Shown: positions 29,444 through 41,184 of the stretch, piece by piece
Numbering within the stretch: position 1 is the stretch's first letter
How the letters are laid out: each line of letters opens with the position of its first letter
From: Streptobacillus moniliformis DSM 12112
GTDB lineage: Bacteria; Fusobacteriota; Fusobacteriia; Fusobacteriales; Leptotrichiaceae
NCBI RefSeq assembly: GCF_000024565.1
Contig: NC_013515.1
Location: 1,222,497-1,286,496 of the forward strand
Direction of reading: 5' to 3'
DNA: 64,000 bases
Program-made: the position numbers and the translations under genes
The notes under the pieces: generated by a model
Seen by the model: the letters and a program-made list of their open reading frames with translations, nothing else
What the model was told of the DNA's origin: nothing
Databases searched by the model: none

Positions 29444-31303
29444 ATGCAAAACTATGATATTATAGTAGTGGGAGCAGGTCATGCTGGTGTTGAAGCTTCA
29501 CTTGCAGCAGCAAGATTAGGTAAAAAAGTCGCTCTATTTACTATATACCTAGATAATATTGCAATGATGAGTTGTAATCCTGCCATAGGTGGACCAGGTA
29601 AATCACATATAGTTAGTGAAATAGGTATGCTTGGTGGTCAAATGGCAGTACATATAGATAAGTATAATTTACAACTTAAAAACTTAAATCATACTAAAGG
29701 TCTTGCAGCTAAAATAACTAGAGCTCAAGCTGATAAATATTGGTATAGAATTAAAATGAGAGAAATTATAGAAAAAGAAGATAATCTTGATGTAATACAA
29801 AATATGGTTGAAGATTTAATACTTGATGATAATAAAAAAGTTATAGGGGTAATTGATGCTCTAGGTCTTAAATATTCTGCAAAAGCTGTAATACTTTGTA
29901 CAGGTACTTTCTTAAATGGAGAATATATTATAGGGGATGTTAAATATTCTGCTGGAAGACAAGGAGAGAAAGCAAGTAATTCTTTACCAGATAATTTAGT
30001 AAAATATGGAATAGAAATGGATAGATACCAAACTGCTACTCCACCTAGAATAGATAAAAAAAGTATAAATTTAGACATATTAGAAAAATTATATGGGGAA
30101 ACTAATCCAAGATATTTTTCATATATGAGTAATAAAACAGATGAGAAACCTCTTGAAACTTGGTTAACATTTACAACAGAGGAAACTATAAAAGTTGGGC
30201 AAGAATTACTTAAATATTCACCAATAGTTACAGGAATTGTATCAACTAAAGGACCAAGACATTGTCCATCACTTGATAGAAAAATTATGAATTTTCCTGA
30301 TAAAACTGATCATCAAATATTTCTTGAACAAGAATCAAGAGAAAGCGATGAAATTTATGTAAATGGATTTACAACAGCTATGCCTCCATTTGCACAAGAA
30401 AAACTTATTAAAACTATTAAAGGTTTAGAAAATGCTAAAATTTTAAGATATGGTTACGCTGTTGAATATGATTTTATTCCAGCAAGACAATTAAATTTTT
30501 CTCTTGAATCTAAGATTATAGAAAATCTTTTCCAAGCTGGGACTATTAATGGTACTAGTGGATATGAAGAAGCTGCTGCTCAAGGATTTATTGCTGGGGT
30601 AAATGCCGCTAGAAAAATAGATGGAAAAGAGCCTATTATAATCTCTCGTGATGAAGGATATATAGGCGTATTAATAGATGATATTATAAATAAAGAAACT
30701 CCAGAACCATACAGAGTTCTTCCATCTCGTGCAGAATATAGGCTAACTTTAAGACAGGATAATGTATTCATTAGATTACTTGAAAAATCTAAAGAAATAG
30801 GTCTGTTAGATAAGTCTAAATTAAAAGAACTTGAAGATAATATACAGATTATTTCTGATGAAATAGAAAGATTAAAAGAAATAAAAATCTATCCTAATAA
30901 AGAAAATAATGATATAATTAAGAAGATAGATAAAAATACTTCACATAATAATGTAATGACAGCATTTGAATTTTTAGCAAGACAAGAAATAACCTATGAT
31001 AATTTAAAATTATTTATTGAAACAAAGGATTTACCTGAAATTTCTAAAGAACAAGTTGAAATAGAGGCTAAATATAGAATATTTATCGAAAGAGAAAGAA
31101 ATCAAATTGAAAAATTTAAAAAACTTGAAAATATTGCTATACCAGAAGACTTTAATTATGAAATAGTAAAAGGATTATCTAATATAGCTATAAGTGGTCT
31201 GAGTTATACTAAACCAAAAAACATCGGACAAGCAACTAGAATAAGTGGCGTTACATACAATGATATAGCCATACTAGTTTCTATACTAAAGGAGGTTAAA
31301 TAG
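29444..31303 (+). CDS. mnmG: tRNA uridine-5-carboxymethylaminomethyl modification enzyme MnmG
   Basis: A 619-residue FAD protein that, with MnmE, modifies the wobble uridine (U34) of several tRNAs. N-terminal 'DIIVVGAGHAGVEA' is the FAD-binding GxGxxG; 'SCNPAIGGPGKSH', 'TGTFLNGEYIIG' and 'INGTSGYEEAAAQGFIAG' are diagnostic blocks; the C-terminal helical MnmE-binding domain follows. The length is normal. An AAGGAGG site precedes the ATG. The stop TAG shares its G with the GTG start of the next gene. mnmE is not in the window. Confidence 0.96.
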   Translation: MQNYDIIVVGAGHAGVEASLAAARLGKKVALFTIYLDNIAMMSCNPAIGGPGKSHIVSEIGMLGGQMAVHIDKYNLQLKNLNHTKGLAAKITRAQADKYWYRIKMREIIEKEDNLDVIQNMVEDLILDDNKKVIGVIDALGLKYSAKAVILCTGTFLNGEYIIGDVKYSAGRQGEKASNSLPDNLVKYGIEMDRYQTATPPRIDKKSINLDILEKLYGETNPRYFSYMSNKTDEKPLETWLTFTTEETIKVGQELLKYSPIVTGIVSTKGPRHCPSLDRKIMNFPDKTDHQIFLEQESRESDEIYVNGFTTAMPPFAQEKLIKTIKGLENAKILRYGYAVEYDFIPARQLNFSLESKIIENLFQAGTINGTSGYEEAAAQGFIAGVNAARKIDGKEPIIISRDEGYIGVLIDDIINKETPEPYRVLPSRAEYRLTLRQDNVFIRLLEKSKEIGLLDKSKLKELEDNIQIISDEIERLKEIKIYPNKENNDIIKKIDKNTSHNNVMTAFEFLARQEITYDNLKLFIETKDLPEISKEQVEIEAKYRIFIERERNQIEKFKKLENIAIPEDFNYEIVKGLSNIAISGLSYTKPKNIGQATRISGVTYNDIAILVSILKEVK

Positions 31304-32019
31304 TGTTTAATATTATTACTAGAGGTGAATATCATTTAAAGTTTTTTTCACCCGAACATCTAAGACCCATTTTTGTATTAATAATTATATCTATCATTTT
31401 ATTATTAATACCATATTTATTTAAAGGAATAGAAAAAGGAAAATATACAACATTTATAGGTATTTTATGTCTAGCAGTAAAACTTGGAGATTCTCTTTAC
31501 AGAATTCATTTTGAAAATGATGTTTGGTATAATACTATGCCGTTTAATCTATGTAATGTTTCTCTTATTTTTGCAGGTATATACTTTATTACAAGAAAAA
31601 GACTTTATTTTAATTTCGTGTATTTTTGGTTTTCAGGAGCTATAATAGCTGTAATAATACCTGGATTTTCAGTGTATCATTCTTCTCTTTATATTTATTC
31701 TTTCATTGCAAGTCATATGTTTGAAATATTTGCAGTATTTTATGCGTTCATACATTTAGATGAAAGAGTTACATTTAATGGATTAATTACATCTATAATA
31801 GGATATATGGGATTAATAGGATTAGCATTTTTATGGAATGGAATTTATGGTACTAACTTCATGTTTATGGCAGATTATATAATAGGAGCAGTAAGCTTTA
31901 TCAAACCATTCTGGTTTTATCAAATAGCTCTAACAGGACTATTTACTTTATCTATACTACTTATGTATCTGCCATTTGTAAACAATCAAAAAGAAGATTT
32001 AGAAGAAGTTATAATATAA
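31303..32019 (+). CDS. YwaF-like (TIGR02206) integral membrane protein
   Basis: A 238-residue membrane protein with about seven hydrophobic segments, of the family that includes Bacillus YwaF (function unknown). 'YNTMPFNLCNVSLIFAGIY' is the characteristic central motif (H/Y-x-x-PLHLC-like). It begins with GTG in the TAGTG overlap with mnmG, so translation is coupled. Its last 26 bases are part of a 40-bp direct repeat whose second copy lies 7.9 kb away at 39926, beyond the RiPP island. Confidence 0.8.
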   Translation: MFNIITRGEYHLKFFSPEHLRPIFVLIIISIILLLIPYLFKGIEKGKYTTFIGILCLAVKLGDSLYRIHFENDVWYNTMPFNLCNVSLIFAGIYFITRKRLYFNFVYFWFSGAIIAVIIPGFSVYHSSLYIYSFIASHMFEIFAVFYAFIHLDERVTFNGLITSIIGYMGLIGLAFLWNGIYGTNFMFMADYIIGAVSFIKPFWFYQIALTGLFTLSILLMYLPFVNNQKEDLEEVII

Positions 32020-32033
32020 AATAAGGGGCTGTT
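31994..32033 (+). repeat. Left copy of the 40-bp direct repeat flanking the RiPP island
   Basis: Matches 39926-39965 with one mismatch (C/T at 32029). It covers the 3' end of the ywaF-like gene and the first arm of its terminator and stops exactly where an IS3-type inverted repeat begins (TGTACTAACCCC, 32034). Confidence 0.9.
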
Positions 32034-32215
32034 TGTACTAACCCCAAAAAGTTGGACAAAATTAATTTAATCTACTAATAAGGATTGACTTCTATAAGAA
32101 GTAGGAGTTAATCCTTTTAATTTTTCTTTAATTCTTTTATTGTTGTAATAATATATATAATCCTCTATTGCTTTTTTCAATTCTTCCAATGTTTTATATT
32201 TTTCTTATAAAGTTT
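32034..32215 (-). mobile_element. IS3-family (IS150-like) insertion-sequence relic
   Basis: 32034-32058 matches a typical IS3-family end (TGTACT-ACCCCAAAAAGTTGGACA). Inward, on the minus strand, lies the C-terminus of an OrfB transposase: 'LEELKKAIEDYIYYYNNKR' followed by 'KGLTPTSYRSQS', with its stop at 32067-32069. The rest of the element is missing, so it is a dead fragment of about 180 bases. It marks the left junction of the island. Confidence 0.8.
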
Positions 32216-32300: not shown

Positions 32301-33737
32301 TTAATTTTTTCTCTTATTAATCAATTCTATAATTTTTAATTCTAATGGTTTAGCATAAAAATATGTCTTACATCCTATACCATACTCTAGGCATTCATTT
32401 TCAAATAATATTGTATGTAAATTATATATTTTAGAATTTAATTTATACATAAAATTACATTCCTTATTATAAAATTTAACTCCTAGTTCTATATACTTTA
32501 AAGGAAAAACTTTTTCTTTTATACTAGATTTCTCTCTCTTTATGTCTATATTTATTCGTTTCTCTGAATCAAGTCCAAAATAGAATATATCATTTCCATT
32601 TTTAACAACTAATCCTGCAACAAAATCCGCATCATCAGGATTATATAAAACTTCTATACTTATCCATAATTCAAAATTTTTATTTTTTGAATACATTATC
32701 TTAGGACTTTCATCTAATGACCATGTATTATATATCTTTTTATTATTAAATTTAAATATAATTTCTTTTTCATTTTTATAAATTATATTATCTTCATTAT
32801 TTTCTATATAAATAATTTTTTCTGTATTTTCTTTATATATAATATTATTATCTAAGAAAAGAGATTCATTCTGAAAACAATTCCATAAATCACTCTAATA
32901 TTTTATCAACATATTGTAATCTGAATTTTTAACAGGATAATTTTTATTTTTCAAAAAATGTAAATATGAGCTATAATTATATTTTTTCCATTTTTTTATT
33001 AAGTATTTTTCTTTTTTTATATAATAATTATATTTTTCAAAAGATATCAAATTCAATTCTTTTAATAAGTTAATATATATATTTAAAAATAAATCTTTAT
33101 ATCTATAAATGTTTAATGTTCTTTTTGTAATTTTATTATTGAATAATTCTTCAAAATTTTTATGACTAAATATTTCTTTTATATTTTCATTTATAAAATT
33201 AAATGAATTTTTGTAGACTTCATTACTTATATAAATATTTTCATTAGAATTTTTTTCTAAAATTAATATAAATTTTTCAATTCCTTTTGCAATATAATTA
33301 AAATAAGATTCATATGCATCAAATAAAATTTCATATTTTATAATAAATTCTCTCTCAAGTTCATTTTCACTATTCAATTGTACATTATCTAAAATATAAA
33401 ATATTTTTTTATTTTTATCATACCCTTTTATTATAAAAGGATGTTCCCAATCTTCTTCTAAATAATAATGTGAATAATATATATTTCTTAAATTTACAGG
33501 AATAACAACTGGAAAACCCAATTCTATAAACTTTTCTATTATATTATAAAAATTATTATTTACACTTATTTTAGATAAATTAAAATCTAATATTTTTGAT
33601 ATTAATATTTCTTTTTCAAAAAAAATATTACAGTTAGTTTGAGTATAAATTCTATAGCAGTTATAAAAACTATCTAACATTAAATATAAATCACCTAATT
33701 TATCATTATATGTAGAAAAACATGTAGCAAATTGTAA
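32301..33737 (-). pseudogene. C39-like / BtrH-N-like protein of the RiPP island, interrupted
   Basis: Two stretches in the same frame (33737-32898 and 32894-32301) are separated only by a TAG at 32895-32897; the reading frame between TAG and the ATG at 32696 stays open and reads on as 'SDLWNCFQNESLFLDNN'. The first part has the look of a papain-like BtrH N-terminal/C39-like domain ('EEDWEHPFIIKGYDKNKK' then 'FYILDN'). The second looks like an all-beta concanavalin-type domain ('DADFVAGLVVKNGNDIFYFG'). The N-terminus is lost at the IS481 relic. The original protein may have bound, cleaved or acylated the peptide; the family assignment is tentative. Apparent initiation from within the IS would add unrelated residues. 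Confidence 0.55.
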
Positions 33738-34686
33738 TGTGATAAAACATATGTAACAAAAAAATAAAAAAAGAGAGATACATTTGATATAATAGAGTTT
33801 GACAAAAACTAAAACAATCAAAGGAGTATCTCTCATGAGTATTATAACAGAAGAAATGAAATTTCGCCATAGATTATGTGAATATGCAATAAAAAATGGA
33901 GTAACTAAAGCAGCAAGGCGTTATCATACAAATAGACAATAGGTTCAAGAAAGCCCCATACAAGCCCAAATGCCCATACAGAAGAAGAATTAATACTAAT
34001 AAAGAATATGTTAAAAAAACATGGAAGTTATGGATTAGCCCAAGTATATGTTAGTTGTAAGAATAAGGGGTATAATAGAAGCTTTGGTAGTATGTGTAGG
34101 ATAAATTATCCAAGTGAGAAAGTACAGGTAGATATTAAATATATTCCAAATGAGTGTATAAAGTTTAATTCAAAGGGGATTAGATATTATCAGATAACTG
34201 CTATAGATGAGTATAGTAGGAAGAGGGTATTAAAGGTTGTAAAGGGAAAGAGTACATATGAGACATCAAAGTACATTAAGGAGTTAGAAAGGGCTATAGG
34301 CTTTAAGATAGAGACTATACAGGTAGATAATGGATATGAGTTTGTAAATGATAAAGATGTAACGGATAGGGAAGATGGAAAGATATTGTATAGTAGGAAA
34401 GAATTTAGGAGCGAGGAAGAATTAATAGAAAATGTTAAAAGGCATGAAAGGCTGTATAATAATACGGCAAAGACAGTGCTTAATTTTAAGAGTCCAAATG
34501 AGGTTGTGAGGGAATAGAGGCTTAAAAGGGCAACCCCAATCTCACTTCACACACTCTAACAATCAATTAAACACTAAACATTAAACAACACTTAACTAAA
34601 CTAAACACTTAATTAAACACTTAGACAATTAACTAACTCTAACTTATATTAAATTTATTTCTTATTATGTAACATATGTATTGACA
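33738..34686 (+). mobile_element. IS481-family insertion-sequence relic
   Basis: About 949 bp bounded by imperfect inverted repeats (TGTGATAAAACATATGTAAC and TGTCAATACATATGTTACAT). The transposase is broken: an N-terminal piece from ATG 33835 (MSIITEEMKFRHRLCEYAIK) stops at 33941, then a different frame gives 'RKPHTSPNAHTEEELILIK', then the DDE core 'QVDIKYIP', 'IDEYSRKRVLKVV' and 'IQVDNGYEF', ending near 34517. Two or three internal deletions are evident, including the region of the catalytic Glu, so it cannot transpose. The 3' tail (34555-34630) has degenerate repeats of TAAACACT. No clear target duplication is seen. Confidence 0.8.
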
Positions 34687-34687
34687 A

Positions 34688-37600
34688 TTAAGAACCTAAT
34701 TCAATTATTTCATCAAAATAATCTTTACTTTCATCATATAAATGATGTGATACAATTATTACTGTTAAATCTTTTTGAGATAAAATATTTTTTTCAATTT
34801 CTATTGCACATTTTTTATCAATGTTAGCATTAATTTCATCTAAAATTAATATTTCTTTTTCTCCCATTAATTCTCTTGCTATACCTATTCTTTGTTTTTG
34901 ACCACCAGATAAATCATCTTCATAAACTCTATCTAATTTATCTAATACAAATTCATCAACATAAGATAATTTTATAACTTTTTGAAATACTTCCTCATTT
35001 ATGTTACGACCTATCAATAAATTATCTCTTAATGTTTCAGATAAAATATATGGTTTTTGCATTACTATTCCTATTATATTTTGCAAACATTTAAAATCTA
35101 TATTTCTATAATTTATACCATCCAATAAGATGTCTCCATCATAATTTAATATTTCTCCTGTTAATATTTTAAGTAAAGTAGATTTTCCAGTACCTGAAGC
35201 TCCTGTTATTACAATTTTCATACCTTTTTTAATTTCTATATTAGGATATTTTATTATATTATCATTAAATTCAACTTTTACATTATTAATGATTAACTTA
35301 TCATTAAATTTTGATATTTGTGTTTTTGGTTCTTTTACATATATGAATGGATATTTTTCTAACAATTTAAAACATGCTCTAAATGTAACTATATTATATG
35401 CAGCACCTCTTGTATAGTTAAATAAAGTACTAGTTAAATTTGCTACTGAAAATATTACTCCTGTTGTTATTTCTCCCTTAATTATTAAATAACCCGTTAC
35501 TATGAATATAATAACCTGAGATATAATACTTGCAAACATTGAAGATGAATTTGCAATAGTCGAATATTTAACTAATCTCACTTTAGGTATTATCATTTTT
35601 TCAAAACTTAATAAAATTTTATTTTTAAAATATTCTGTTTGATTATTATGATAAAAAATTTCAAATCCATTTATATAATCATCTGTTTTCTTAAGAACTC
35701 TACCTGAATGTTCCGAAACATCTTTTGTTGCATTTTCAACTTTTTTTTGAAATATTTTAGGACTATAATATACAAATACTGTCATTATTATAGAAACTAA
35801 TAATATTATCCAGTGGAAATATATTATTGCAAAAGCATTTAAAATTACTGTAATAATACTTTCTACAGCTCCATAAAATTGAATAAATCCATTATCTCTT
35901 AATAAATTCATATCATTTACTAACCATGAAATATATTCAGATTTTGTATTTTTTTTAAATTCTGAAAAATCTACTTTTGTTAATGGTTCTAATATATCTT
36001 GTCTTATAGCATTTAATTCTTTTTGTATCAAATTTTCTTTTATAATATCTTTAGTTGCTTGAGCATAACTAACTCCTAACCAACATAATATATCGACTAT
36101 TGAAAATATTAAAAATGTATTTATATTTTTTGATATTATTGCATCTAATACATATGTTAATATTACAGATGATGCAACTGTCATTGATGCCCACACTATT
36201 ATCCAAAATAATAACCAAATATTTTGTAATTTAAATTTTAAAATATATGTAATAAATTTATTTTTATACATAATTTTATACCTCTTTTCCAAAAAAACTA
36301 TTACTTCATTAAATATTTTTTCTATTTCTTCTTCACTATCAAAAATAAAACATTTTTTTAAAGTTAATTTTTCTATTTCTTTTTTAAATTTTTTAATTTC
36401 ATTTATATCACTTTTTTGATATATATTTCCTAAAACAGACCATTTAATAGTTTTGTTAATAGGAAAAAGTACTAACGCAATTACTTTGCTTTCATATACA
36501 ACTTCTAAATTTATAATTGTTCGTTGAATATATTCAAATGTGTCAGTAGGATTTATTACTAGTAAAATTCCGTCAGGATCACTCCCTAAAATTAGTTCTA
36601 TATTTTTTAATGTATAACAATTAAGATTTCCTGTATTATAATGTATAGTTTGAGATTGAGTCCCTAAAATTATTATATCAGGATTTTTTAATTCAATATC
36701 TGATAATAATTTATTGATGAAATATATAGAATTATTACCATTTATTCTTACAGTTGAGTTATACCCCGTTGGATATATTTCATCAAAATTAAATAAAAAA
36801 CCTGTACCTTCAGTTCCTAATTGACCTACTTTATATCCTTTATCTAAAAAGACTTTTCTTAATGCTAATTGTAAAGTATATTTACCTTGTTTTGGTGAAG
36901 TTCCCATTACAGCTAGTATAGGTTTACTTATACAACGTAATTTCCCAAATGTATTATTATTTACCATATTTTCTTCGATTAAAGGATAATAAAAATTTAG
37001 ATTTTTTATATTTAGTTCATTTAAATATTTAGAAATATCTTCAATAGCGTATAATTTTTTATTATATTTTATACAATTTTTTATTATATCTTTTGTATAA
37101 TTTTTATTTGTTAAATTTTCTATCTCTTGAATATGCCCTAATATAAATGTATCAAATTCACTTGTCCAATCTAATTTTTCAATATTTTTTATTATCATAT
37201 CATTATTTGTAAATGTCAAAATATCAGATATTTTTTTATTTATTTGACCTAAATATTTAATATCAAATACTTCAATAACTTTAAAATTACATAATTCTAA
37301 ATTAGTTAAAATATTTGTCATTTCTTTATTAAAAGGAAATATAACAGCTTTACTAATTTTTAGATCACATTTATAAGAAGTAACATAATTATTAAATTCA
37401 CTATATATTTCAGTTGCATTTTCTTTTAAAAATTGAAATACCGTAAATTCATTATTTATTTTTTCAAAATTTTTATATATCATACTTGAAATATATGGTG
37501 AAAAAAAACTGCTACCGAGTAAATTTGAATATTCATTATTCAAACTTGGTAAATATTGTTGTCTTGATAAAAATCTTATATTTATTGGGCTATTTTCTAC

Positions 37601-38096
37601 ATATTGGTAACCATTATTAGGAACCTTTTTTACTGCCATATCTACTCCTATTACATTTTTGAATGATGCAGGATATGAAAGGCTGCCTAAATTATCAAAT
37701 GAAGACACAATAAAAATACCATTATTATAGAAATCATCACATATTTCTTCAAATAATTTTCTATTATCACAAAAAGAAATTCCTAAACTCATATGTATAA
37801 TCTTACATTTTATATTTTTTTTATATATTTTAATGCAAATATTACATCATTTAATTCAACTTCTAGATTATTCTCAAATAACTTAATAACAAAGATATTA
37901 GCAGTAGGATTATTTCTTTTTAACAAATAATATATCACTGTTCCATGACCTATTGAATCAGAAATATCATTATTAAGTTCATAACTATTTCTATTTTTTT
38001 TATTGAAATACCTTTGATATCAAAATTTTTTAATGCATCATGATTTTTTTCAACTCCACTGTCTATTAATACAATATCCGTATAAATAAAGTCCAT
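34688..38096 (-). CDS. S8 peptidase - TIGR04066-like P-loop - ABC exporter fusion (two frameshifts near the 5' end)
   Basis: One uninterrupted frame (37792-34688, 1034 residues) holds three units. (1) C-terminal half of a subtilisin domain: 'MSLGI', 'SYPASFKNVIGV', catalytic Ser95 in GSSFFSPY. (2) Residues about 145-490, a P-loop protein (GTSPKQGKYT at 297-306) resembling the TIGR04066 peptide-maturation family. (3) From about 505, an ABC exporter: membrane domain, Walker A GASGTGKST, DLSGGQKQR, Walker B LILDE, switch His. The missing first part of the peptidase lies upstream from ATG 38096 (GGAGAG site): Asp in 'IVLIDSGVE' and His in 'SIGHGT'. It is joined only if two frameshifts, both in A8 tracts (37994-38001 and 37815-37822), are corrected to A9. 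A likely leader protease plus exporter. The stop is two bases from the IS481 end, so the tail may be clipped. Confidence 0.8.
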
Positions 38097-38160
38097 GATT
38101 TATACTCTCCTTTTAAAAAATGCAGTATTAAACTACATTCAAATTTTACTTTAGAATTAA

Positions 38161-38235
38161 TTAACATTGACAATTGTTTTCATTATACAAAACAAAATGT
38201 TTTTTTATTTTTTTTATTTTAAATAATTTTTTCAT
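38161..38235 (-). CDS. Candidate RiPP precursor peptide (24 residues)
   Basis: A short gene with its own strong GGAGAA site, between the carrier-like gene and the S8/ABC fusion, where precursors of such systems are expected. It begins MKKLFKIKKIKKHF, a very basic leader-like stretch, and ends ENNCQC, with both cysteines in the last three residues before TAA. A two-Cys core is smaller than usual for Cys-rich maturase substrates, so the 3' part may have been lost or the gene may be decayed. No similarity claim is made; the call rests on position, ribosome site and Cys-terminal composition. Confidence 0.5.
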   Translation of the reverse strand: MKKLFKIKKIKKHFVLYNENNCQC

Positions 38236-38289
38236 TTATAGTTCTCCTTTCATAATATTAATTAATATTATATATTACATATTAATTTT

Positions 38290-38526
38290 TTATTTATAAT
38301 ATTCTTGTATACAATTAAAAATTTTATTGAAAGTATACTCATCTTTATTTAATTCAAATAATTCATTTATTTCTTCTATTTCAATATTTAGATATTCCTC
38401 TAAATCAACTAATAAAGATAAAAAAGATAATGAATCTAAATCAAGTATTTCATTTTCATTTTCTATTAATAAACCATTGTTTTGAAAAATTTTTTTTATT
38501 TCTTCTTTTTTTAAATTTATATTCAT
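38290..38526 (-). CDS. Acyl-carrier-related protein of the peptide maturation system
   Basis: A 78-residue acidic protein with the four-helix carrier pattern. 'LDLDSLSFLSLLVDLEEYL' contains the DSL motif whose Ser is the phosphopantetheine site in acyl carrier proteins. 'NIEIEEINELFELNKDEYTF' would be helices II-III. Such ACP-related proteins (TIGR04069-type) are known to accompany the CcpM-type radical SAM maturase and TIGR04066 proteins in clostridial Cys-rich peptide clusters. GGAGAA precedes the start, 13 bases after the maturase stop. Confidence 0.72.
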   Translation of the reverse strand: MNINLKKEEIKKIFQNNGLLIENENEILDLDSLSFLSLLVDLEEYLNIEIEEINELFELNKDEYTFNKIFNCIQEYYK

Positions 38527-38539
38527 AATTTCTCCTTTT

Positions 38540-39823
38540 CTATAATGAATTAAATATAAAGTTTTTATAGCCGTAACATATTTTTTTATTTTTAATCATT
38601 CGTCTATATGGACAGTAATGATTGTAACAAATAGGATAAAATTTACAATGTTTACATTCATTGTCAAGTTTATTCCTTTTTATCCATTGATTCTCAATAT
38701 CATTTTTAATAAATATTTCTCCATCTTCTTTTATATATCCGATTATATTCTTTTCTTTAAATTTAAAATTATATATTGCTAATGAATACTTTAGTACATT
38801 TCCATCAGGATCTATATAATATGAATTTTTTTTACAAGATGAACAAAGACCAGCACCAGCTTTTATTAGAGGCTGATTAATAATATTGAAATTATTTTCT
38901 ACTAATGTACTATGAATATTTGCAAAATCTTCTTCCGTAATCATTTCATCAATTAATTTATTTATTGATTCTCCACCATAATTAGACATTTTTTGACAAT
39001 TAAAATTTATTTTATTGTTTCTTTTTAAAAATTTCAATTCATTCATAAATTTTGTAAAATTATTAACAGTAGCTTTAGTTAAATTTATCCTTAAAACAAT
39101 ACTATAATATTGTTTTATTTCAAAATTTATTTTTCTCAAATTATCAATTATTACTTCAAATGAATCTTGCTTATTTTTATGAGGTCTTAGTTTATTATGT
39201 ATTTCTCGTGGTCCATCTAAAGTTATTTGAAATAAAAAAACTTTACATTTTAAAAGTTTTTTGAAATTATCTAATGTTAATAAATATCCATTTGTTGTCA
39301 TCCCTGAAACCAATGAAATTTTATTTTTTTTACAAATTTCTATACATTTCTCCATAAAATAAATAATTTTCTTAAATCCTAACATTGGTTCTCCACCAAA
39401 CCAATTAATTTTTATAGTTTTATATTTTTTAGAATTTTTCTCAATATATTTTAATATACTAATTAAAATATTTTTTTTAATTATTTTATATTCCCTATCT
39501 TCTTGATAGCAATATGCACATTTAAAATTACACCCATCTGTTATTATTATTGTAAATTCTAAATTATTATCAAAAATATTATAATTATAAATTTCTTAAA
39601 CTTTCTCAAATTCATTTTCATTAGCATCAACTAAAAAACCATCTAAATATAATTTTTTTATTAAATTATCATTAGTATTAGTAAAATTCATTTTAGACAT
39701 TAATTTATTGTATATTTCATCTGATATTTGACAGTTTATCTTTTTACCCGTAACAGTATTTAAAATAGTTACTTCATCATTTTTTTTAATTTTAACAATG
39801 TTATAATTGGACACTTTATACAT
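38540..39823 (-). pseudogene. Radical SAM/SPASM peptide maturase with an in-frame stop
   Basis: Residues 1-75 (39823-39599), starting MYKVSNYNIVKIKKNDEVTI, match the N-terminal peptide-recognition region of RiPP maturases. TAA at 39596-39598 ends it, yet the same frame continues directly: 'FTIIITDGCNFKCAYCYQE' with the C-x3-C-x2-C cluster motif (39509-39532), 'INWFGGEPMLGF', and a SPASM domain with 'CSSCKKNSYYIDPDG' and 'CKHCKFYPICYNHYC'. No other lesion is visible over the remaining 352 codons, so this is a single nonsense change or two separately translated parts. There is no good start codon or ribosome site for the second part; the first in-frame ATG (39385) would omit the cluster cysteines. 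Family: SPASM maturases like CcpM (TIGR04068). Confidence 0.78.
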
Positions 39824-39861
39824 AAATACACCCTTTATTAAAAATATTAAATAACATTATT

Positions 39862-39900
39862 TATCCTAATAAAGGATACCTTGATTTTATTATTTGTCAA
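39862..39900 (-). promoter_or_regulatory. RiPP operon promoter with overlapping palindrome
   Basis: On the minus strand a perfect TTGACA (39895-39900), 16 bases, TATCCT (39873-39878). The -10 is one arm of the palindrome TATCCT-N5-AGGATA (39862-39878), a likely operator. It sits 25 bases inside the right direct repeat and drives the leftward maturation genes. Confidence 0.6.
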
Positions 39901-39925
39901 TAATTATTAAAGAGATTGTGAAAAT

Positions 39926-39965
39926 AAGATTTAGAAGAAGTTATAATATAAAATAAGGGGTTGTT
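39926..39965 (+). repeat. Right copy of the 40-bp direct repeat flanking the RiPP island
   Basis: Same orientation as 31994-32033, one mismatch. Here the terminator arm is complete and runs on into its partner arm, so this copy keeps the original downstream junction of the ywaF-like gene. Confidence 0.9.
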
Positions 39966-39993: not shown

Positions 39994-41184
39994 TTAATTA
40001 TATTTTATCTTTTTTGAATTTAATTCCATTCTTTTTAGTATCAACAATAACATAGATACTAATAATGTAAAAATTAATGAAATTACAAAAAAAGTTGTAT
40101 ACATACTTAAAAATTTTAATATGTAACTTGAAAAAATTAATGTCATAGAAATTAAACCTGTAGTAATAAAGTGTTGTATAGATAAATATGTCGTCCTATA
40201 TTTAGTATTTTCAGGTATTTTCTTATTTACATATATTGTAACTATATTACCCTCAATATATCGTATAACTTGTTGTATACAAATAAATATCATGAATAAA
40301 ATAAAGCTAGATTTTGAATACATTATTAAAAAACTAGTAAATAATATTGAAATATATATCTTCATTATTGATAAATTATTATATTTAATTTTTTTTATGA
40401 AGTATTTTTTTAAAATTTGGTTTGTTATTACCCCTATAATACTAAATAATACTGTAAACATACCAAAATATTTTACATCAATACCAAAGTCTGTATAAAT
40501 AGGTTGATAAAAGTTATATGTACTTCTGAAAAAAACAAAAATAAATGAACCTATCATTAATCCAAGTATTACTTTTATATCAATAATTTCTTTAATTTTA
40601 TTATTATTTTCATTGTTATTATCTTTTTCAATTTTTTCAGATTTGCTTTTCATTTTACTTTCTTCTAAAAAAAATATTGTAGCTAAAATATTAATTGTGT
40701 ATATAATAATATCTAAATAAATTATATATAGTATATTAAATTTAAAAATAATTCCACTTAGAAATGATAGTACAATACCCAATGTTAAACCAATACTACT
40801 AACATTTGCTAAAATAACCTTATATTTATTTAACTCTTCTGAATTAAAAAAATATTCAAATAAAATTGATTCTGTATTTCCAGAGGTTAATGCTCCACCT
40901 ATTGAATATATTACTATAACTACAACTCCATGTGAAAAATTATTTGAAAATAATAGAACTATCATTGAAATTAATATTATAACTTTACCTAAAATTAATA
41001 TTCTTTTTCTACCAAATAAATCTGAAATATATCCACTTGGCATTTCAAAAGCTGTTATTAATACAAATAATAATGTATCTAAATATAGATACTTATCTAT
41101 AGTAATTGATAGTTTAGTTATATAAAATGTTACGAAAATAAAATCAAGCAAAGCATTTCTAGGAAATAAAGAGTTTAAATACAT
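39994..41184 (-). CDS. MFS transporter (drug/peptide-export type)
   Basis: A 396-residue, twelve-segment membrane protein. 'MPSGYISDLFGRKRILILGK' is the MFS motif A (D-x-x-GR-[KR]). 'GGALTSGNTESILFEYF' is typical of a subgroup of Firmicutes/Fusobacteria MFS proteins often found near peptide natural-product genes. The ribosome site is weak. It lies just outside the right direct repeat and shares its terminator. Immediately upstream is the tail of a broken PqqD-like gene, so it may be a leftover exporter or immunity gene of a second peptide locus; this is inference. Confidence 0.8.
   Translation of the reverse strand: MYLNSLFPRNALLDFIFVTFYITKLSITIDKYLYLDTLLFVLITAFEMPSGYISDLFGRKRILILGKVIILISMIVLLFSNNFSHGVVVIVIYSIGGALTSGNTESILFEYFFNSEELNKYKVILANVSSIGLTLGIVLSFLSGIIFKFNILYIIYLDIIIYTINILATIFFLEESKMKSKSEKIEKDNNNENNNKIKEIIDIKVILGLMIGSFIFVFFRSTYNFYQPIYTDFGIDVKYFGMFTVLFSIIGVITNQILKKYFIKKIKYNNLSIMKIYISILFTSFLIMYSKSSFILFMIFICIQQVIRYIEGNIVTIYVNKKIPENTKYRTTYLSIQHFITTGLISMTLIFSSYILKFLSMYTTFFVISLIFTLLVSMLLLILKRMELNSKKIKYN

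Follow-up and report, generated by a model that had tools for sequence, protein, structure and literature searches.

The 64-kb window analyzed here, positions 1222497-1286496 of the 1662578-bp chromosome of the rat-bite fever agent Streptobacillus moniliformis DSM 12112 (G000), hosts a locus of about 7.9 kb for a radical SAM-modified RiPP (ribosomally synthesized and post-translationally modified peptide). The best explanation overall, in which we place somewhat better than even confidence, is that the locus is a decayed and probably non-producing copy of a cluster type in which an S8 protease and a TIGR04066-like P-loop domain are fused into one protein. Its assignment to this fused S8-TIGR04066 sister type and not to the CcpM family is highly likely, and we consider it very probable that the copy is a relic that lost its function in this strain. 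The radical SAM/SPASM maturase, a carrier protein, the precursor peptide, the S8 protease, the P-loop domain, an ABC exporter and a C39-like piece follow one another on the minus strand from a promoter. The main genes are listed below (L160 is a related locus in Clostridia).

38540..39823, minus strand: radical SAM/SPASM peptide maturase, broken; read through the stop, it aligns with maturase profiles along almost its whole length
38786..38788, minus strand: TAT (Tyr) replacing a SPASM-region Cys; the alignment has Cys (vYKC/vYPC) in 5/5 aligned relatives
38290..38526, minus strand: acyl carrier protein (ACP), intact; its DSL motif includes the serine for phosphopantetheine attachment
38161..38235, minus strand: precursor peptide gene, 24 aa, MKKLFKIKKIKKHFVLYNENNCQC; good Shine-Dalgarno sequence, homologues in L160
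37376..38096, minus strand: S8 (subtilisin-like) protease domain, disrupted by two frameshifts; the motifs LIDSGV (D), GHGT (H) and GSSF (S) survive, spread over three frames
36275..37375, minus strand: TIGR04066-like P-loop domain, similar to DUF1611/DgcN and fused to the S8 part; its motif GTSPKQGKYT is intact
34688..36271, minus strand: ABC exporter, 527 aa; own Shine-Dalgarno sequence and ATG, in frame with the upstream domain, Pfam ABC_tran and ABC_membrane

The earlier note on this DNA had described a radical SAM RiPP maturation locus running leftward from a promoter at 39900. The parts and their order are indeed present (maturase 39823-38540, ACP-like protein 38526-38290, peptide 38235-38161, S8/P-loop/ABC 38096-34688), and the kind of locus is confirmed by these parts and by syntenic homologues. 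All the gene kinds that the note named were found, but not as intact genes: it had reported none of the stops, the frameshifts or the insertion sequence (IS). As in radical SAM RiPP loci in general, a maturase with a CxxxCxxC motif and a SPASM region lies beside a short precursor that is conserved in syntenic relatives.

We defined the fused type by a radical SAM maturase, an ACP with its serine, a short precursor, an S8-TIGR04066 fusion with an intact P-loop and an ABC protein, and the window locus falls within this definition. S8 and the TIGR04066-like domain form a single protein of about 600 aa in L160, L161, L158, L010 and L011, and the window fusion is 35-45% identical to the fusions of its relatives. 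The sister type is intact in Clostridia, with the fused protein, precursors of 24-26 aa and the gene order of the window. L160, L161, L158 and L010 are intact syntenic clusters, and L160 is composed of a radical SAM maturase, an ACP, two 24-aa peptides, the S8-TIGR04066 fusion and two ABC proteins. In a tree of the TIGR04066 domain, the window sequence is the sister of L160 (support 0.957) within the fused clade (0.987). The fused type is not described in the libraries and papers that we searched.

The locus had previously been taken for a clostridial cluster of the CcpM type, and this assignment fails by the refutation criterion of the earlier note itself, because all components score below the curated cut-offs. 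The maturase reaches 90.7 bits with TIGR04068 (cut-off 500), the P-loop domain 77.2 bits with TIGR04066 (cut-off 200), and TIGR04069 matches none of the window proteins up to an E-value of 1 (cut-off 70 bits). With the same tool, CcpM control clusters gave 660 bits for TIGR04068 (L165), 497.5 for TIGR04066 and 119.8 and 88.3 for TIGR04069. CcpM-type clusters with the same parts list are known from Paenibacillus polymyxa (SacP23, PMC10731318) and Roseburia intestinalis (PMC4573289), the maturase and the TIGR04066 domain are homologous, and CcpM/CLI_3235 clusters (TIGR04068, TIGR04066, TIGR04069, TIGR04065, S8, ABC) share with the window locus both their gene kinds and precursors starting with MKKL. 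However, the window type has S8 and TIGR04066 in one protein, retains the carrier serine and an intact P-loop, and in its closest members has precursors of only 24-26 aa with two Cys only. Together with several independent lesions, these differences make a working CcpM-type cluster at this position highly improbable.

The 24-codon open reading frame (ORF), judged by its conservation, is a genuine precursor and not a chance ORF. Homologues of 24 aa occur at the same place in syntenic clusters, and the window peptide MKKLFKIKKIKKHFVLYNENNCQC shares 16 of its 24 residues with the L160 peptide MKKLVKPMKEKMNFALYNENNCWC, including the LYNENNCxC-stop end. The best of 2,163 other small ORFs, from 324 kb of the Streptobacillus genus, matches the L160 peptide at 7 residues only. 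L160 carries a second 24-aa peptide gene, MKKLVKPMKEKMTFALYNENNCWC, and its peptides end in LYNENNCWC. L161 has three 26-aa peptide genes, MKKKLLKPKKSSSKITLYKEKG(IW/VH/VV)CC, that vary solely before the last two Cys. Precursors are longer elsewhere in the type (35 aa in L158, 51 and 61 aa in L010), and in the intact relatives they consist of a leader rich in Lys and a short tail with Cys. The precursor profile TIGR04065 does not match the window peptide up to an E-value of 1 nor the L160 peptide up to 10; the L010 peptide scores 18.2 bits (cut-off 26) and a CcpM control 62.8 bits. In viral contigs, the LYNENNCxC pattern had two matches, and on translation neither was a plausible MKK-type peptide gene. 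Precursors of 24-26 aa are substrates that are easy to synthesize.

In the maturase, an N-terminal part of 75 aa precedes an in-frame TAA (39598-39596). Reading of the sequence between this TAA and the CxxxCxxC motif returned no ATG, GTG or TTG start codon. Over nearly its whole length, the read-through frame matches NF038107 (166 bits), TIGR04463 (164) and TIGR04334 (150), and therefore represents one gene carrying a nonsense codon. These profiles, of CefB (NF038107), TIGR04463 and Clo7bot (TIGR04334) maturases, are the closest, and the window maturase lies far below their cut-offs of 525-600 bits; it is 40% identical to the intact maturase of L160. Unlike the window type, a Clo7bot cluster of Paraclostridium is annotated without ACP, S8 or TIGR04066. 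The ranthipeptide maturase PapB (NF047865, 106 bits, cut-off 340) belongs to the same SPASM superfamily and is described as forming Cys-Asp/Glu thioethers (PMC9413430). The present peptides also have a Glu ahead of the Cys tail, but the Cys-Glu spacing differs.

Decay extends to the far end of the locus, where an IS copy has separated the exporter from a C39-like gene.

33729..34693, plus strand: IS copy of about 965 bp with a fragmented transposase; a 100% identical copy at C1:93811-94775 of the same genome, and many further copies
32895..33725, minus strand: C39/BtrH_N-like gene, start lost at the IS junction and frame closed by a TAG at 32897-32895
32301..32894, minus strand: frame open for 197 codons past the TAG, either the C-terminus of the C39-like protein or a domain of its own; no family match

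The IS sits at the stop codon of the exporter and against the C39-like gene, whose missing start is where a catalytic Cys would lie. The gene that had been called C39-like is there in part, and its identity is weaker than its presence: BtrH_N gives 15.4 bits (gathering score 29.7, E = 0.022) and Peptidase_C39_2 an E-value of 0.025, also below cut-off. It has a local match to the C39-like protein of L010 (E = 0.007), and its structure prediction is too poor for use (pLDDT, predicted local distance difference test, 41).

Overall, the lesions are the TAA and the lost SPASM Cys in the maturase, two frameshifts in A8 tracts of S8 (38001-37994 and 37822-37815), and the IS and TAG in the C39-like gene; one strain per Streptobacillus species was sampled for them. 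They could be errors of sequencing or assembly, or be bypassed by transcriptional slippage at A8 and stop read-through, so that the locus is functional here. We consider this improbable. It is true that both frameshifts lie in A8 tracts of a genome obtained by Sanger and 454 sequencing (PMC3035246), that runs of at least 9 occur a little less often in G000 than in the congeners, and that the P-loop/ABC frame is open across 1,034 codons at about 20% GC. However, homopolymer error could not explain the TAA, the TAG, the Cys-to-Tyr change or the IS, the stated error rate of the genome is below 1 in 100,000 (PMC3035246), and the congener G096 lost the maturase independently. A 454 artifact peculiar to this assembly was rejected as the source of the frameshifts, since three congeners share the depletion of runs above 8; single-base errors may still occur. 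A8/T8 runs number 12 in the 7.9-kb RiPP region and 36 in the whole window, and the two changes of frame in S8 lie within runs of this kind.

The P-loop domain resembles, in its sequence and predicted fold, the DUF1611/DgcN N-acetyltransferases. It scores 27.8 bits with PF07755 (DUF1611_C, cut-off 25), with 28.6-42 bits in the relatives L160, L158 and L010, and it matches PDB 2G0T by sequence (E = 8e-6); two canonical TIGR04066 proteins that we examined had no DUF1611 match. When its AlphaFold model was compared by Foldseek, DUF1611 structures (2OBN, 2G0T) came first, followed by DgcN (7XRJ) and cyclic-2,3-diphosphoglycerate synthetase. The P-loop domain is similar to these proteins (2G0T, 2OBN, 7XRJ) in sequence and fold, but in the window type it is fused to S8 and lies beside a carrier gene, and its acyl transfer is putative. 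Our literature search returned no paper connecting DUF1611/DgcN with TIGR04066. The motif at the P-loop is GTSxxQGKxTLQL in the fused type and mostly G..E(K/R)TNKFEIQL, or more divergent, in canonical TIGR04066.

The carrier protein shows a parallel division. A hidden Markov model built from four relatives, with the window excluded, matches the window carrier with 41.5 bits (E = 8e-11), and the D and S of the DSL motif are invariant in the carrier alignment. PF00550 gives 17.4 bits on the window carrier, below the cut-off of 20.8, and is above gathering in L160, L161, L158 and L010. The attachment serine is kept in 6/6 carrier rows of the fused type, which represent 5 loci as L010 is counted twice under two locus names. 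In the carrier-related proteins of canonical CcpM clusters it is gone in 25/25, with P, A or T instead. Carrier serine and P-loop are jointly intact or jointly degenerate in the compared loci, with the exception of L007.

These data suggest a cleave-and-cap chemistry, which we put forward tentatively and at less than even confidence; beside the observed gene content, order, fusion, homology, motifs, lesions and congener relics, we infer each chemical step, the step order and any bioactivity. In intact relatives, the maturase would cross-link the Cys tail, with a Cys thioether, possibly to the conserved Glu, as the likeliest product. The S8 domain would then cleave off the leader and free the N-terminus, which the fused DUF1611/DgcN-like domain would cap with an acyl group from the ACP before the ABC protein exports the product. 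Capping by the P-loop domain is preferred because protease and P-loop domain are fused and because P-loop and carrier serine are kept or lost together.

In the butirosin pathway, BtrH transfers acyl or aminoacyl groups carried by BtrI. By analogy, the C39/BtrH_N-like protein could pass such a group on from ACP to peptide, and the P-loop domain would instead activate a carboxylate, for instance in ACP loading. C39-like genes adjoin the cluster in the window, L010, L157 and L158, the ACP is intact, and the fold neighbors dethiobiotin synthetase and cyclic-2,3-diphosphoglycerate synthetase act on carboxyl or phosphate groups. Nevertheless, this route seems unlikely: the window protein scores below cut-off for C39/BtrH_N and those of L010 and L158 show no such similarity, the C39-like fold model is unusable, and L160 and L161 have no C39-like gene in the stretch read.

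Several further points, besides the possibility that both A8 frameshifts are homopolymer errors, weigh against the reading of a decayed cluster of cleave-and-cap type. DgcN is only one of several fold neighbors, dethiobiotin synthetase and cyclic-2,3-diphosphoglycerate synthetase being others, and the P-loop model is weak (pLDDT 60, TM-scores 0.3-0.4). No acyl-activating or acyl-loading gene was recognized in the clusters of the fused type. In L007, the P-loops are intact and S8 is encoded nearby, but no ACP was found there, and P-loop and ACP are therefore not strictly linked. Finally, the ACP and exporter genes carry no lesion, and purifying selection acts on the exporter (dN/dS 0.21), so that some of the locus may remain functional.

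If capping is what these enzymes do, fused clusters may make N-acylated, radical-cross-linked mini-peptides, and canonical CcpM may be a derived lineage in which the catalytic residues of carrier and P-loop were lost together and both proteins survived as non-catalytic maturation factors. We regard this proposal as speculative and rather doubtful. If true, the co-loss would explain the presence of an "acyl carrier-related protein" beside a radical SAM enzyme. The puzzle of carrier-like proteins beside such maturases can now be divided between two testable lineages: serine and P-loop are intact in this type, and in CcpM the serine is gone and the P-loop degenerate. The Rosetta-stone fusion of a leader protease with a DgcN-like domain offers a concrete hypothesis.

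The locus is inserted between a membrane-protein gene (31303-32019) and a major facilitator superfamily gene (39994-41184), and is enclosed by a direct repeat.

39895..39900, minus strand: -35-like TTGACA of the promoter region, conserved in the congener G096
31989..32033, no strand assigned: 45-bp direct repeat, left copy, at the 3' end of gene 31303-32019
39921..39965, no strand assigned: 45-bp direct repeat, right copy, 95.6% identical to the left copy

The two copies enclose the whole window locus, and only one copy lies at the empty site of G096. No integrase was found within the repeat-flanked locus. A fragment of an IS3-type transposase (about 32034-32206) adjoins the left copy.

In G096, a remnant of the cluster (L008, C21, 369-2180) sits elsewhere, beside an rluD-like gene. 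Through a deletion, its promoter stretch (87% identity across 78 bp in a pairwise alignment of 39834-39911 with C21) now abuts the final 45 or so codons of the TIGR04066 domain, after which comes an intact exporter. The window and G096 exporters are 91.5% identical, with a synonymous divergence (dS) of 0.21 like that of core genes (0.205-0.30), and the locus was therefore in the common ancestor of the two species. It moved in at least one lineage and shed its biosynthetic genes, with the exporter staying constrained. The cluster is dying in two different ways in two Streptobacillus species, and the exporter is retained in both. The relic could persist precisely for the exporter, which would give immunity to a related peptide or export something else. 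Consistent with this, dN/dS is 0.21 at a dS of 0.21, near the core genes checked, and G096 kept promoter and exporter while deleting maturase, ACP, peptide and protease. However, recent decay with a still intact exporter yields the same signal and dN/dS is not branch-specific, and we regard persistence for the exporter as possible, with the chances against it.

The cluster was probably acquired from Clostridia, because Fusobacteriota yield only remnants and distant or weak matches. With the fusion as query, the 98 Fusobacteriota genomes returned, besides the G096 remnants, nothing beyond a distant relative with two domains (G063) and a single weak S8-type match (G041). Few fusions were found in a sample of nearly 800 Clostridia/Bacillota genomes; the type looks rare, its extent not being bounded. 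Searching for related loci with the window P-loop protein alone gave nothing, and an alignment of two maturases as query did retrieve them. The S8-TIGR04066 query had only partial matches in plasmids and phages, mainly to the S8 half, and matches to the S8 half only in viral contigs.

Some of the retrieved loci depart from the fused type. The fusobacterial L007 (4364-9772, G063) encodes a two-domain TIGR04066-like protein with both P-loops intact, S8 as a protein of its own and a radical SAM maturase. Two short ORFs of L007, near-copies of each other, start with MKDKIKEL.. and are rich in Cys/His. L162 (7368-9032) and L163 (6476-8146) encode, beside a maturase, S8-TIGR04066-like fusions without the GHG protease motif and without a P-loop, which from their sequences are apparently non-catalytic; L163 has short precursors with CHCGC. 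A single metagenome-assembled genome of Clostridiales (G098) carries four TIGR04066-type loci, L010, L156, L157 and L158, and L157 has a split S8 fusion with no maturase nearby. In L161 (7771-9171), a beta-lactamase-family protein (PF00144) with a possible role in resistance or processing lies between S8 fusion and maturase.

The published genome of S. moniliformis 9901T (= DSM 12112) comprises 1,662,578 + 10,702 bp (PMC3035246), in agreement with the total of 1673280 bp analyzed here. Its second radical SAM gene (L001/L009) has different surroundings and, from its sequence, may be an anaerobic sulfatase maturase.

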